In this document: piece by piece, positions 1 through 5,800 of the stretch | Numbering within the stretch: the first letter of the stretch is position 1 | Layout: each line of letters begins with the position of its first letter | Source of the DNA: Pseudomonadota bacterium | Lineage (GTDB): Bacteria > Pseudomonadota > Gammaproteobacteria > Pseudomonadales > Oceanobacteraceae | DNA length: 5,800 nt | Assembly (NCBI GenBank): GCA_023399105.1 | Contig: JAEWQT010000156.1 | Coordinates: forward strand, 1-5,800 | Direction: 5' to 3' | The notes under the pieces: generated by a model | What the model was told of the DNA's origin: nothing | Database searches by the model: none | What the model saw: the letters and a program-made list of their open reading frames with translations, nothing else | Made by a program: the position numbers and the translations under genes

Positions 1-3000
1 GCAGCATAAAGCGGTTAATGCCGGCGGCCTGCTGCGGATGATCATGCAGCCATTGCACCAGCTGTTCCAGGGTCCAGCGATCCAGCAAATACATGCGGTT
101 GTAGTTTTCCGCGGCCTGCAGATAGTCCAGAGGCGGAATCTGCGCTCCCTGTTCATCGCGGATGCTGATCATAATTTCATACTGACGCGTGTCGCGATAC
201 CGTTCCTGGATCGGCTTGATGGGGATGCAGAGCACCTGCAGCTGGTTGTTGCTGAGCGCCTGATTCAGTTTGTTGCCCCAGGCCATAAATTCCTCATGGC
301 GCTGGCGGCTGGTGTCATCGGTCTGGTAGGTGACAATGCGGCTGCCACCTTTCTCTTTGGCCAGCTGGCAAGCGGATTCGGCCTGCTCCACCAGCTCGGC
401 GGCACCAGCGCTGTCGGCATTGGTCGTGGCCAGGCCAATGCTGAGGTGCACAGTGAAACTGCCGGCCGGACTGTCGACCTGGGTGGTTTCAATCTGGCGC
501 TTCAGCATTTTGGCGCTGGCCTCGGCCTGTTCGCTATCGGTATGGGGGAAGAACAGGGCAAACTCGTTGCTGCCCAGGCGCGCACACAGGGCATCCGGCA
601 TATGGTCGCGCAGCAGTCCGGCGACCTGTTGCAGGCACAGGTCGCCGCCTTCCACGCCGTAGTTTTTGTTGATCAGTTTGAACTGATCAATGTCGGCCAT
701 CAGCAGGGTGCAGGGCGTGGCACTGCGCAGGCTGATCAGAATGCGTTCCTGCAGCAGGCGCAAAAAGTGCTGACGGTTGGTCAGGCCGGTGAGCGGGTCG
801 ATATTGGCCTGCTCAGACAGGTCGCGGTAAATCTGCTGCACCAGCTTATCGACGCCCCGGTCGACCGCGGACTCTTCCTGTTCGTACAGGCGTTTGACCC
901 GACCATCATCAAAGGCTTTGGCCAGTTCGGCCAGGGTGAAGTCGATGACCTTCATGCCGCTGTGGTTCACGCAGGCAAAGCGTGATGCATCCTGAGCGAT
1001 CCAGACCACCGACACCGCCTGATCCGGTTCGACCAGCAACAGCCAGTCGCCGACCTGCAGGTTCATGGCGCGGCGGGTGCCACGGCCTTCCGGGACCACT
1101 TCGGTCGGTTCGGCACTCCAGGCTGGCAGATCAATGGCTTCGGGGATGGTGCCGGATTGCAGGTGCTCAGTGGCGGCTTGCAGAATGGCCTGGTGCCACA
1201 GTTCATGGGCCGGCAGGTTGCCGTTCAGTTTATCCATTTCGCTGCGGGCCAGATCCAGTAAGGGCCGGAACTTTGGCAGCAACTCCTGGCGCCCGCTGTT
1301 GGCCGGACCGAACAGGGCCAGTACCTGCCGGTAGAGCTTAATCGCTCCCTGGAAGCGCTTGCTGTCCTTGCCTTCGCGCAGCAGCAGCAGGCTCAGCAGC
1401 GGTTGCCAGCCCTGCTGCAGCCATTCCACCACGCTGTTGGGCAGGGTGCGGTTGGCGATGTCTTTGCCAATCAGTTGCTCAATGCGGCGGCGGGCGTTGT
1501 GCAGCTTGTGCTCGCCTTCGGCGGCCTGGGCCACCCGTTCGGCATTCTGGCGGGCTTTGCGCTCAGCGCCGCCCACCAGGCCCTGCAGATTTTCCAGCAG
1601 CTCTTCCAGTGAGTGTTCGTCACGATCAAGATTCTGCAGTACCGGATCGATCAGCCCCTGCAGGCGGCTGCTGAGCTGGTCTTCGCCGCTGGTGGTCAGC
1701 TGGCCGAGTTTGGCCAACTGGTTCAGAACCAGCCGGCCCGGGTGTTCGGGGTTGAACAGCAGGCTGGGGTCTTTCAGCATCAGCTGCAGCAGTGGCCAGC
1801 CCAGACGTTCAATAAAGGGTTTAATAAAGTCGGCGACCTGGTCGCTGCTGAGCAGGTGCTGGGTCACCTGCTCCAGGGTATCAATGGCATCACGGGAATC
1901 GGCCGGCAGGCTGACGTCCTGTTCGGCCAGGGCTTTTTCCACCGATTCCCGCACATGGCCCTCGGCCAGGCTGTGTTGCTGGGCCAGATGGGTAACGATA
2001 TCGCTGACCTGCTGCGGAGCAGCGACCGGCAGACTCTCTTCCGGGGTAAGTTCCGCCTGCTCCAGCCGCTGGTAACGCAGGCTGAGCAGGTTCTGGATGT
2101 TGGCGTAGGCCTGTTTGGCTTCCTGCTGATGGCGCTGGAAGCTTTGCAGCGACTGACCCCGATTGTTGCCGGGCGGCGGATTGGTAACGCTCGCTGCGCT
2201 GTTCGTCTTAACGGTTGCGGCCGTGATGCTGGTGGAGCTGGCACCGGCTGCGGCAGACGCCGTGGGCACGGCTGATTGCACCGCGGGGATGGCGCGGCGA
2301 TAACGGAAGGTCAGCGGGATATCAATCTGGCGGATCAGATTCTGGTAGCTGGTTTGCAGGGTGGTCAGGGCCACCTGCTCATACACAGAAAACGCCAGTG
2401 CCCGCGCTTCCTGGGGTAGCTGCAGGGCATCCAGGCTGTCACGGAAGGCTTCTGTCACGGTGGACGGACCGATGGGGTTGAAGGTGTCTTCCATGCGCGC
2501 CGCTGACAGGGTATCGAGCAGCTGGCGCAATTCAAAGCTCATGTTGGCCAGCCGGGACTGCAGGTGCGATGCCGTCACTTTGGCCAGCAGCCAGTCTTCA
2601 AAGTCAGCCTGCTGCACCAGGGATAAACGCAGCTCAGCCTGATCGGGCTGCTGTTCGCGCGAGGCTTCCGGTTGCCCCTGCAGCCAGCGTTGCAGCTGTT
2701 GTTGCAGGCGCTGCTGAAACACCTTCAGCATTGCACCGGCATTGGTTTTGGCTTGTTTTTCCAGTCGCAGCCACAGCTGTTGTTCGGCGGTGTTGCGGGC
2801 CATGTTGGCTTTTTCGAAGGTGCCTTCGAGGAAGTCCGGCAGCCATTGACGCAGCAGCCGGTCGCGCACGTTCTCGGCTTCCTGTTGCAGCAGCTGCAGA
2901 TAGCGTTGCTTTTGCTCGTCCGTGATGCGGCGTTGATTACGGGTGGCCTGATTGTATTCCTGCAGGCGCAGAAACAGTTTGCTGTCGGGCTGCCGGAATT

Positions 3001-3244
3001 GCACGCCGGCATGCTGGTCGTTATTGAAGACCCAATCCACCGCGACCTTGACGGGGTGATCGTCAAAGGCCAGCTGCAGCATCAGATTCTGAGTGCTGGT
3101 GGGAATGCCATGCGGCCAGAGCAGGTGCACGCCGGTCTGTGAATAATCCACTACCTGACAGGGGTATTGTTGCCCATCGGTGCTGATCAGAGCAGCATTC
3201 AGGTAGGTGGTGAATCTTGGGTGTTCGCGTTGCTCAACGGCCAT
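1..3244 (-). CDS. PilZ-DUF1631-GGDEF-EAL multidomain protein, probable c-di-GMP receptor (3' end beyond window)
   Basis: The minus-strand frame from ATG at 3244 stays open for 1081 codons to the left edge, so the C-terminus is missing. Residues 1-95 look like PilZ: R6-x3-R10, then D33-x-S35-x2-G38, both c-di-GMP-binding motifs intact. Residues about 110-800 fit DUF1631: an HPGR-x-VLN core at 501-507 and a GDW motif at 732-734 followed by a beta-rich stretch typical of that family's end. An Ala/Ser/Thr-rich linker lies at about 320-362, and Gln/Leu-rich helical stretches flank it. A GGDEF domain follows (DPLTGL 816-821, DID 851-853), but its signature is GSNEF (891-895) and no RxxD I-site precedes it, so cyclase activity is unlikely. 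The EAL domain begins near 995, with EIM (1023-1025) in place of EAL. I infer a cytoplasmic c-di-GMP-binding protein whose later domains are regulatory or scaffolding. No membrane segment is visible. The start is supported by the position of the PilZ motif; the Shine-Dalgarno (GGA, 9 nt upstream) is weak. Confidence 0.88.
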   Translation of the reverse strand, partial: MAVEQREHPRFTTYLNAALISTDGQQYPCQVVDYSQTGVHLLWPHGIPTSTQNLMLQLAFDDHPVKVAVDWVFNNDQHAGVQFRQPDSKLFLRLQEYNQATRNQRRITDEQKQRYLQLLQQEAENVRDRLLRQWLPDFLEGTFEKANMARNTAEQQLWLRLEKQAKTNAGAMLKVFQQRLQQQLQRWLQGQPEASREQQPDQAELRLSLVQQADFEDWLLAKVTASHLQSRLANMSFELRQLLDTLSAARMEDTFNPIGPSTVTEAFRDSLDALQLPQEARALAFSVYEQVALTTLQTSYQNLIRQIDIPLTFRYRRAIPAVQSAVPTASAAAGASSTSITAATVKTNSAASVTNPPPGNNRGQSLQSFQRHQQEAKQAYANIQNLLSLRYQRLEQAELTPEESLPVAAPQQVSDIVTHLAQQHSLAEGHVRESVEKALAEQDVSLPADSRDAIDTLEQVTQHLLSSDQVADFIKPFIERLGWPLLQLMLKDPSLLFNPEHPGRLVLNQLAKLGQLTTSGEDQLSSRLQGLIDPVLQNLDRDEHSLEELLENLQGLVGGAERKARQNAERVAQAAEGEHKLHNARRRIEQLIGKDIANRTLPNSVVEWLQQGWQPLLSLLLLREGKDSKRFQGAIKLYRQVLALFGPANSGRQELLPKFRPLLDLARSEMDKLNGNLPAHELWHQAILQAATEHLQSGTIPEAIDLPAWSAEPTEVVPEGRGTRRAMNLQVGDWLLLVEPDQAVSVVWIAQDASRFACVNHSGMKVIDFTLAELAKAFDDGRVKRLYEQEESAVDRGVDKLVQQIYRDLSEQANIDPLTGLTNRQHFLRLLQERILISLRSATPCTLLMADIDQFKLINKNYGVEGGDLCLQQVAGLLRDHMPDALCARLGSNEFALFFPHTDSEQAEASAKMLKRQIETTQVDSPAGSFTVHLSIGLATTNADSAGAAELVEQAESACQLAKEKGGSRIVTYQTDDTSRQRHEEFMAWGNKLNQALSNNQLQVLCIPIKPIQERYRDTRQYEIMISIRDEQGAQIPPLDYLQAAENYNRMYLLDRWTLEQLVQWLHDHPQQAAGINRFML

Positions 3245-3428: not shown

Positions 3429-4775
3429 TTAAAACGCTTGGTTATCGACCTTCTGGCTGCGCAAACTGCGCAATTTCCGGTACAGCGTGCGTTCGCTGAT
3501 GCCCAGGGCCTGTGCCAGTGACGCGTTATCACCTTCGTACTGTTGCTGCAGTTGTTGCAGGTAATGCTGCTCCAGCTGATCCAGCGGCATCACGGGCAGA
3601 CTGGTGGGTAAAGCGGTGCCGCTGGTGACGATGAGGTTATCACGCTGTGGCAGTTGCAGGTGGCGTGCTTCAATCAGGTTGCTGTCGCACAGCAGAATGG
3701 CGCGCTCAATCCGGTTACGCAGCTCACGGATATTGCCCGGAAACGTCTGGCTGGTGAGCCAGTCGCAGGCGCTGTCAGAGAACTGCAGTGGCCGCTGTGG
3801 GCTGAGTTGCTGCAGCAGGTGGGTGGCCAGCGGCACAATATCTTCTGGGCGCTCGCGCAGTGACGGCAGCAGCACCGGAAAGGGGCTGATACGGTAGTAA
3901 AGGTCCTGACGGAAGGTGCCGGCGGCGACCATGTCTTCCAGCTGCCGGTGGGTGGCACAGATCAGCCGGAAGTCGGCCTGCTTGGGGGTGATGCTGCCAA
4001 CCGGCCGGTAAGCGCCGGTTTCGATCAGGCGCAGCAGTTTTACCTGCATGGGCAGCGGAATATCCCCCACCTCATCCAGAAACAGAGTGCCGCCACGGGC
4101 GGCATCAATCAGGCCGGGTTTCTTCTGGGTAGCGCCGGTAAAGGCGCCTTTTTCGTAGCCGAACAGTTCGCTCTCAAACAGGCTTTCGGTCAGGCCGGAA
4201 CATTCCACCGTCACAAAAGGTTTGCTGCTGCGCTGGCTGTGGTGGTGCAGATATTGTGCCGCCAGTTCTTTGCCGGTGCCGGAATCCCCCAGCAGCAGTA
4301 CGCTGATATCACTGGGTGCTGCCCGGCTGAGTAATTCCAGCATACGGGTGTAGGCACTGCTGTAACCCAGCATGGGCTGACCGTGCAGGCTGTCGCGGTG
4401 TTGCAGCGGCTGCATGATTTCGACAAAGAAGGTGATGTTGCCGGCGTCGTTGCAGATCGGGCTGAGTTCCACGTTGACGTGTTCGCGGCCACGGGCGGTG
4501 TTGTGAATATGCAGAATGCGCTGGCGCTGACCGGTGTCCAGGCACTGGCGTAAGGGGCAGTGTTCGCCAGCCTGATCGCAGGGGACGCTGTAGCCGTGCG
4601 ATACCTCGTAACAATGACGCTGCAGAATGTCCTCTTCATTGGCAAAGGTGCGCCGGTAGGCATCGTTGGCCGCGCAGATTTCGTAATTCAGATTCAGTAA
4701 GACGGCCGGATCGCTGATGGCATTCAGCAGCGAGGTAATAGCGGGCAGGTCGTGACTGTCGAGGTTGGAAAACAT
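3429..4775 (-). CDS. Sigma-54-dependent transcriptional activator with Cys-rich PAS sensor domain
   Basis: From ATG at 4775 this gives 448 residues. Residues about 10-120 resemble a PAS sensor and carry a cysteine cluster (C55, C66, C73, C78) in a CYEV...PC...CPL pattern that recurs in PAS domains of such activators. The AAA+ domain has Walker A GDSGTGKE (163-170), the sigma-54 contact loop GAFTGA (210-215), Walker B LFLDE (231-235), an arginine-finger stretch RQDLYYRI (289-296) and PGNIRELRN (346-354). A Fis-type helix-turn-helix ends the protein (about 417-435). There is no phospho-receiver domain, so it should sense a ligand or redox state directly rather than a kinase. It would open promoters held by RpoN polymerase, using ATP. 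It is transcribed divergently from cydA, which has a near-consensus -24/-12 element, so cydA is the obvious target. A TTG at 4808 would add 11 residues (with C6 and C9) but would place one operator-like repeat inside the gene. Neither start has a good Shine-Dalgarno. The family is certain; the signal and target are inferred. Confidence 0.95.
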
Positions 4776-4778
4776 GGG

Positions 4779-4794
4779 CTGACATCTTTGGCAG
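4779..4794. promoter_or_regulatory. Candidate activator-binding site 1 (imperfect palindrome)
   Basis: CTGACA-TCTT-TGGCAG is an imperfect palindrome, with 5 of 6 arm positions paired. It matches site 2 in the pattern CTGnCA-N4-TGGCAG, and the centres lie 23 bp apart, about two helical turns. It is about 110 bp upstream of the -12 element of the cydA sigma-54 promoter, a usual distance for an enhancer bound by a sigma-54 activator. It also lies just upstream of the activator's ATG at 4775, so autoregulation is possible. Confidence 0.5.
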
Positions 4795-4801
4795 TAGTGT
4801 G

Positions 4802-4817
4802 CTGTCAAATCTGGCAG
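4802..4817. promoter_or_regulatory. Candidate activator-binding site 2 (imperfect palindrome)
   Basis: CTGTCA-AATC-TGGCAG repeats the pattern of site 1, again with 5 of 6 arm positions paired; adding the flanking G and C extends the palindrome to 18 bp. Its centre is about 95 bp upstream of the -12 GC of the cydA promoter. Paired palindromes at this distance are typical of upstream activating sequences for sigma-54 activators with Fis-type DNA-binding domains. A further single half-site TGGCAG occurs at 4869-4874. Confidence 0.5.
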
Positions 4818-4890
4818 CTAATGTAAAGATTCGCAAGCCCGGTGAGGGTTTTCTATGCTCAACAGCGGTGGCAGTCATGCTGTGGCCGGC

Positions 4891-4906
4891 TGGCCCGCTT
4901 GTTGCT
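4891..4906 (+). promoter_or_regulatory. Sigma-54 (RpoN) -24/-12 promoter for cydA
   Basis: TGGCCCG-CTTG-TTGCT matches the RpoN consensus TGGCACG-N4-TTGCW at all but one position. The invariant GG (4892-4893) and GC (4904-4905) have the required 10-bp spacing. The start of transcription would be near 4917, leaving an untranslated leader of about 134 nt before cydA. The element points toward cydA and lies between that gene and a divergent sigma-54 activator, which strengthens the call well beyond the motif match alone. Confidence 0.75.
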
Positions 4907-4966
4907 GGGTGACTCTGTGACAATACGCCGCATCGTCAGCCAGGGCATTTGGGCTGACCATGCGAT

Positions 4967-4981
4967 GCCTGACTGGCAGGC
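4967..4981 (+). repeat. Small inverted repeat in the cydA leader
   Basis: GCCTG-ACTGG-CAGGC forms a perfect 5-bp stem with a 5-nt loop inside the predicted untranslated leader of cydA. No T-run follows, so it is not an intrinsic terminator. It is short enough to be chance and is listed mainly because a longer hairpin follows it. Confidence 0.3.
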
Positions 4982-4999
4982 CCTGCGTTCGTGGGGCGG

Positions 5000-5018
5000 C
5001 CGCCGGCTTAACCGGCGG
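5000..5018 (+). repeat. Stable hairpin in the cydA leader
   Basis: CCGCCGG-CTTAA-CCGGCGG is a perfect 7-bp GC-only stem with a 5-nt loop, ending about 20 nt before the Shine-Dalgarno of cydA. There is no U-tract after it, so termination is unlikely. A hairpin here could stabilise the messenger or influence translation. The ribosome-binding site itself is outside the stem. Confidence 0.5.
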
Positions 5019-5038
5019 TGCCAATGTTCTGAGTAACC

Positions 5039-5044
5039 GGAGGA
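5039..5044 (+). promoter_or_regulatory. Strong ribosome-binding site of cydA
   Basis: GGAGGA lies 6 nt upstream of the ATG at 5051. It fixes the cydA start and contrasts with the weak sites before the two minus-strand genes. Confidence 0.9.
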
Positions 5045-5050
5045 TCAGCA

Positions 5051-5800
5051 ATGATCAGTGAAAGCCTCGTCGAGCTATCGCGGCTGCAGTTTGCCATTAC
5101 GGCGTTTTACCATTTTCTGTTTGTACCCCTGACCCTGGGCCTGTCATTTCTGTTGGCCATCATGGAGTCGGTGTACGTGATGACCGGTAAAGAAATTTAC
5201 CGCGACATGGTGAAATTCTGGGGCAAGCTGTTTGGTATTAACTTTGCGCTGGGGGTGACCACCGGCCTGACCATGGAGTTTCAGTTCGGTACCAACTGGG
5301 CGTATTACTCGCATTATGTGGGTGATATTTTCGGGGCGCCGCTGGCCATTGAAGGCCTGATGGCGTTCTTTCTGGAATCCACCTTTATTGGCCTGTTTTT
5401 CTTTGGCTGGGATCGGTTAAGCAAGGTGCAGCATCTGGTGGTGACCTGGCTGGTGGCCATCGGCTCTAACCTGTCGGCCCTGTGGATTCTGATTGCCAAC
5501 GGCTGGATGCAGAATCCGATTGGTGCTGAATTTAATTACGACACCATGCGCATGGAAATGACCAGCTTTGCTGAGGTGATTTTAAATCCGGTGGCGCAGG
5601 TGAAATTCGTTCATACCGTATCCGCCGGTTATGTGACCGGGGCGATGTTTGTGTTGGCAATTTCGGCCTATTACATGCTGAAAAAACGCGATCTGCCCTT
5701 TGCCCGCCGTTCGTTTGCCATTGCCGCCAGCTTCGGTTTTGCCGCCATTCTGAGTGTCATTATTCTGGGCGATGAATCCGGTTATGAGCTGGGTGATGTG
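5051..5800 (+). CDS. cydA: Cytochrome bd ubiquinol oxidase subunit I (5' half; continues past window)
   Basis: CydA is the quinol-oxidising, haem-bearing subunit of the inner-membrane cytochrome bd terminal oxidase, which reduces oxygen to water with high affinity and does not pump protons. The 250 residues visible align almost without gaps, from memory, with the E. coli protein (about 520 residues), offset by two positions at the start. Key residues are present: H21 (haem b595 ligand, E. coli H19), E101 and E109 (E. coli E99 and E107) and H188 (haem b558 ligand, E. coli H186). The stretches [13 protein letters not shown] (57-69), EFQFGTNW (76-83) and GDESGYE (241-247) are hallmarks. Several hydrophobic membrane segments are evident. 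The Q-loop lies mostly outside the window, so its long or short form cannot be judged; cydB would be expected downstream. A good Shine-Dalgarno supports the start. The promoter upstream looks RpoN-dependent, with the divergent activator as the likely regulator. Confidence 0.98.

Follow-up and report, generated by a model that had tools for sequence, protein, structure and literature searches.

A divergent FisR-type regulator gene and a predicted sigma-54 promoter before cydA suggest control of a cytochrome bd oxidase by reactive sulfur

The cytochrome bd oxidase encoded in the window (the whole stretch of 5,800 nt analyzed here) is predicted to respond to reactive sulfur rather than to low oxygen, and related bacteria show the same arrangement repeatedly. 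A match to a sigma-54 promoter precedes cydA, together with two likely activator sites. The divergent gene next door, overlooked in the preliminary description of this DNA, encodes a sigma-54 activator of the FisR type. We consider it quite probable that this regulator, once sulfane sulfur has modified it, works with sigma-54 to activate cydAB, and that the bd oxidase would thus be on under sulfide stress; the signal, the binding, the activation and the benefit are all inferred.

Three genes were found in the window, encoding from left to right a PilZ-DUF1631-GGDEF-EAL protein, the activator and CydA (Table 1). The last was assigned to the bd oxidases by a Cyt_bd_oxida_I domain covering residues 9-247 (profile search, E 2.3e-110). 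Its ATG is separated by 275 nt (4776-5050) from the divergent regulator gene, and in the relative nearest to the window, locus L115, cydB follows cydA. In a blastn search of plasmids, the best 20 of 219 records covered cydA only.

Table 1. Annotated and predicted features of the window.
Feature	Position	Strand	Remarks
PilZ-DUF1631-GGDEF-EAL protein	2-3244	minus	extends past window edge
FisR-type sigma-54 activator gene (fisR-like)	3429..4775	minus	448 aa; PAS_4 - Sigma54_activat (GAFTGA) - HTH_8
Codons of the C55-X10-C66-X6-C73 motif	4557..4613	minus	PAS domain of the regulator
Distal predicted activator site TGACA-TCTT-TGGCA	4780..4793	.	23 bp from proximal site; just ahead of fisR-like start codon
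Proximal predicted activator site TGTCA-AATC-TGGCA	4803..4816	.	centre 81 nt before promoter element; de novo motif
Sigma-54 (-24/-12) element TGGCCCG-CTTG-TTGCT of cydA	4891..4906	+	1 mismatch; conserved in relatives
Predicted cydA transcription start	4917	+	12 nt past the C of -12; placed by sigma-54 geometry
Structured 5' leader of predicted cydA transcript	4917..5050	+	folding, z -2.28
cydA, cytochrome bd quinol oxidase subunit I	5051..5800	+	first 250 aa; window ends inside gene

The putative promoter element, TGGCCCGCTTGTTGCT, agreed with TGGCACG-N4-TTGCW at 11/12 positions, with the GG of -24 and the GC of -12 exactly spaced, and 144 nt lie between it and the cydA ATG, in keeping with the near-consensus sequence and the correct placement claimed in the preliminary description. 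By its letters alone the match is suggestive only, because dinucleotide shuffles of the intergenic region, read in the same orientation, yielded a GG/GC-containing match of at least 11/12 in 28 of 5000 cases, and shuffles of the whole window, read on either strand, in 44 of 300. When up to two mismatches were allowed, the window contained one sigma-54 match against 2.17 expected by chance. The geometry of sigma-54 promoters was used to place the transcript start, and the resulting leader is GC-rich with several predicted hairpins (-61.5 kcal/mol) and is mostly kept in L115. A gene with the Sigma54_DBD domain (rpoN) was present in 5/5 close genomes. Two candidate elements were rejected: a clear IHF site (best match only 7/9) and, for the leader, an RNA element of a known family (the one hit, sroD, scored 18.2 bits versus a gathering score of 50).

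The same description had reported that no FNR/ANR box precedes cydA, and this held, since the best match to TTGAT-N4-ATCAA in the intergenic region reached 6/10; FNR/ANR control of this gene was therefore discarded. A simple scan listed no sigma-70-type site between the two genes, although such a scan is crude and overlooks weak promoters. A basal sigma-70 promoter might thus share the gap with an inducible sigma-54 promoter, which would make sulfur control an add-on: the 275 nt offer room, and sigma-54 promoters give little basal expression. We regard such a combination as unlikely, given that neither a sigma-70-like nor an FNR element was detected there.

The profile search placed a PAS_4 domain at residues 17-127 of the regulator, Sigma54_activat at 136-301 (E 1.3e-63) and HTH_8 at 398-436. 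This layout of an N-terminal PAS, a sigma-54 AAA+ and a Fis-type HTH domain matches the FisR-type architecture, and the GAFTGA loop, which contacts sigma-54, occupies residues 210-215. The three cysteines of the FisR type are present as C55, C66 and C73 (the third cysteine of Cupriavidus pinatubonensis FisR we take to be Cys71). They were invariant in 31/31 aligned regulator sequences (the query plus 30 homologues taken from 120 listed of 7999), and C55, H60, C66 and C73 were retained in 76/76 loci, comprising 69 places from a search of the order, L001-L006 and the window. The 25 listed NCBIfam models, out of 29 with a match, all stayed below their curated cut-offs, and the regulator was therefore not named NifA, NorR, NtrC or the like. 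A sequence search of the PDB at 1e-10 returned only the AAA+ part and the HTH of other activators, with no FisR structure among them. In the available portions of the literature on FisR of C. pinatubonensis JMP134 (Li et al. 2017, doi 10.1111/mmi.13725, via PMC9495516, PMC9774590, PMC12170894), sensing is attributed to three conserved cysteines (PMC9774590), and Cys53 and Cys64 form a tetrasulfide with sulfane sulfur (PMC9495516). The step from C55 to C66 is 11 residues, equal to that between these published positions. Judged by residue positions and domains, the divergent regulator is of the FisR type, and it likely senses sulfane sulfur through its three conserved cysteines. The activator next door to cydA also suggests what the signal is, namely sulfane sulfur or sulfide.

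In the order search, 66 of 390 genomes matched at E <= 1e-120, with at most four candidates scored per genome, and weaker FisR-type genes, such as one of Neptunomonas at 5e-119, fall outside this set. Loci L001-L006 are the six kept of 80 obtained by a contig scan with generic AAA+ peptides; L007-L010, among the 74 dropped, match residues 13-436 or 16-435 at 36-42% identity. Of the 69 FisR-type loci of the order, 44 contained a gene for a bd oxidase, either CydA or CioA, and 51 a pdo- or sqr-like gene; both kinds occurred together in 33 and neither in seven. Among the genes sought, the first divergent one across the 76 loci was CydA (n = 14), CioA (n = 25), PDO (n = 24), TauE (n = 1) or none of these (n = 12), and the gap held a sigma-54 site of at least 10/12 in 11/14, 22/25, 15/24, 0/1 and 0/12 cases, respectively. 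No 10/12 site was present in the stretch beside the regulator in L001, L002, L003 and L006. On the regulator tree, the CydA-first label required four changes and the CioA-first label six; since these may be gains or losses, the tree shows repeated change of partner, not the number of gains.

In two loci, sigma-54 sites precede both a sulfide-related gene and cydA. In L004, from an Oxalobacteraceae MAG, the regulator gene is flanked by a pdo-like/sqr-like/tauE-like operon on one side and by cydAB on the other, with TGGCACAGCTTTTGCT (11/12) before the pdo-like gene and TGGCATGGAAACTGCA (10/12) before cydA. In L005, from Neptunomonas antarctica, sigma-54 sites precede an SQR-like gene (11/12) and cydA (10/12). 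Names such as PDO and SQR denote activities predicted from the Pfam domains of the L004 and L005 proteins (metallo-beta-lactamase fold, Pyr_redox_2, TauE), from gene order and from similarity to these proteins. At 10501-12517 of L005, the SQR-like gene and a rhodanese-like gene immediately precede cydAB in the same orientation. In most members of another group (L133-L138, L142-L147, L149 and L154), cioAB and then a pdo-like and, mostly, an sqr-like gene run co-directionally, away from the divergent FisR-type gene, and cioA is preceded by a sigma-54 site; these genes form a candidate unit for sulfide respiration. L141, a pdo-first locus, does not belong to this group.

We lean, with less assurance than for the window itself, towards an order-wide sulfur switch, in which FisR-type sensors would directly command two separate kinds of bd oxidase, CydA and CioA, with persulfide dioxygenase and sulfide:quinone reductase frequently part of the same unit, sulfur would replace oxygen (FNR) control, and in the lineage of the window the set of genes next to the sensor would have been reduced to the oxidase alone. 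In both the window and its closest relative, G243, whose regulator is 94% identical, the neighbour of the regulator is cydA. The best pdo-like and sqr-like genes of G243 (L274 and L278) lie away from the regulator, and their 400-nt upstream regions contain no palindrome of the kind described below and no sigma-54 match above 8/12, so that in this lineage the sulfide link rests on the kinship of the regulator. A COX1-family gene was found in 5/5 close genomes, and a sulfide-resistant second oxidase would therefore be useful, although the COX1 family includes some NO reductases.

The activator and sigma-54 could also control cydA while the same cysteine-bearing PAS domain senses NO, cyanide, oxygen or general thiol oxidation. 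Protection by the bd oxidase extends to NO and cyanide (PMC11837568, in the parts available), which would fit such a signal, as would the separation of the G243 sulfur genes from the regulator; the pdo- or sqr-like genes beside the regulator in 51 of the 69 loci, and sulfane sulfur as the effector given for FisR in the available parts of PMC9495516 and PMC9774590, make it rather improbable.

The control comparison drew on the same 390 genomes, in 101 of which cydA was found; 92 of these genes and that of the window, 93 in total, were compared over 400 nt upstream (nine were left out, two of them partial genes). A FisR-type gene lay within 10 kb of cydA in 24 cases (FisR-near), and the 69 others were classed from 1.5 to ~3.4 kb of fetched upstream sequence, plus gene coordinates for four loci. 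A sigma-54 site of at least 10/12 preceded 19 of the 24 FisR-near cydA genes and two of the 69 others (Fisher p 2.7e-13), against an opposite-strand background of 0/24 and 4/69; the five remaining FisR-near genes scored 9 (n = 3) or 8 (n = 2). After clustering of similar upstream regions the difference persisted (11/16 versus 1/42, p 2e-7), and a chance sigma-54 match was rejected on this co-conservation. FNR/ANR boxes (at least 9/10) showed the reverse distribution, with 0/24 FisR-near and 21/69 others (Fisher 0.0012), weakly so after clustering (0/16 versus 10/42, p 0.048). The promoter 16-mer of L115 is identical to that of the window. Co-conservation of such sites with the regulator gene makes the predicted sigma-54 promoter credible. 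The two sites found away from FisR belong to L248 and L250, which score 10/12 although the upstream sequence fetched for them contains no gene of the FisR type.

A de novo motif search in 57 regions upstream of sigma-54 sites recovered the palindrome TGYCA-N4-TGRCA in two of six runs, those with the two top scores, while the other four gave weaker motifs. The window contains exactly two copies of the relaxed form TGNCA-N4-TGNCA, which are the predicted activator sites of Table 1. This form occurred upstream of cydA in 18/24 FisR-near cases, being absent in six, versus 2/69 others (p 3e-12), and in 12/16 versus 1/42 after similar upstream regions were clustered. Distances from site to promoter favoured steps of ~10.5-11 bp (resultant 0.65 at 10.75 bp and 0.66 at 11.0), a tendency described over related loci and given without a significance test. 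In L115 the sites lie 71 and 94 nt from the promoter, compared with 81 and 104 in the window, a 10-bp shift, and a third palindrome near the promoter of L115 has no counterpart in the window. The distal site, 4 nt before the regulator start codon, may also restrain the regulator's own gene.

The preliminary description had further proposed that RpoN control ties this oxidase to a specific signal, and the divergent activator, the palindromes, their co-conservation across the order and the lack of FNR boxes in the FisR-near set lend support to that proposal. That an ordinary sigma-70 promoter under oxygen control (ANR/ArcA) runs cydA and the sigma-54 match is fortuitous seems very improbable: shuffled windows do give equally good matches at the rate stated above and weak promoters escape a simple scan, but no FNR box or sigma-70-type site was found between the genes, and the sigma-54 site, the palindromes and the regulator strongly co-occur.

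In the mechanism favoured here, sulfide would be oxidised to persulfides and polysulfides, which would crosslink C55 and C66 of the regulator in the way described for the Cys53-Cys64 pair in FisR from Cupriavidus. This would free the AAA+ domain to hydrolyse ATP, and FisR bound at 4780-4816 would loop to the RNA polymerase-sigma-54 complex on the promoter element and open it, with the cydAB mRNA beginning near 4917. Because the bd oxidase resists sulfide, respiration would go on under sulfide while haem-copper oxidases are inhibited.

FNR/ANR-controlled cydAB is a known system with the same oxidase, whereas the window has a sigma-54 site and no FNR box. The remaining comparisons refer to the available portions of the papers cited. 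FisR of C. pinatubonensis shares with the regulator of the window the sigma-54 activator type, conserved cysteines with an 11-residue step and, in relatives of the window, sulfide-related neighbours; its published targets, however, are sulfide-oxidising genes, while the divergent gene here is cydA. FisR of Acinetobacter baumannii, likewise a sigma-54 activator, controls pdo1-sqr, and its gene is divergent from pdo1-sqr-tauE, but that protein is without the regulatory cysteines (PMC7315123). In Chromobacterium violaceum, cioRAB under CioR also encodes a bd oxidase protecting against sulfide, but it is governed by a MarR-type repressor and induced by cyanide, and sigma-54 is not mentioned in the available text of that report (PMC11837568). 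Sigma-54 regulators stand near other genes in the cases of NitA of nit1C (PMC11049912, PMC6368324) and NorR (PMC4601167), and in a sigma-54 case from Campylobacter cydAB is merely a neighbour (PMC4626219).

The searched literature, which mostly excluded subscription papers, contained no statement of FisR or sigma-54 control of any bd oxidase; the kind of regulator is already known, but no paper there names a bd oxidase among its direct targets. Sulfide resistance of the bd oxidase is documented (PMC8148161), as is CIO-mediated tolerance in P. aeruginosa (PMC10968556), and the enzyme is sulfide-induced in E. coli, M. tuberculosis and A. baumannii. For the last, the available text neither assigns the induction of cydAB to FisR nor names the regulator behind it (PMC7315123). 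The present locus offers a testable regulator, predicted binding site and promoter for a bd oxidase, and suggests that this enzyme can be a core component of the FisR sulfide response and not only an enzyme of oxygen limitation. On the far side of the regulator gene, the adjoining PilZ-DUF1631-GGDEF-EAL protein is probably related to c-di-GMP.
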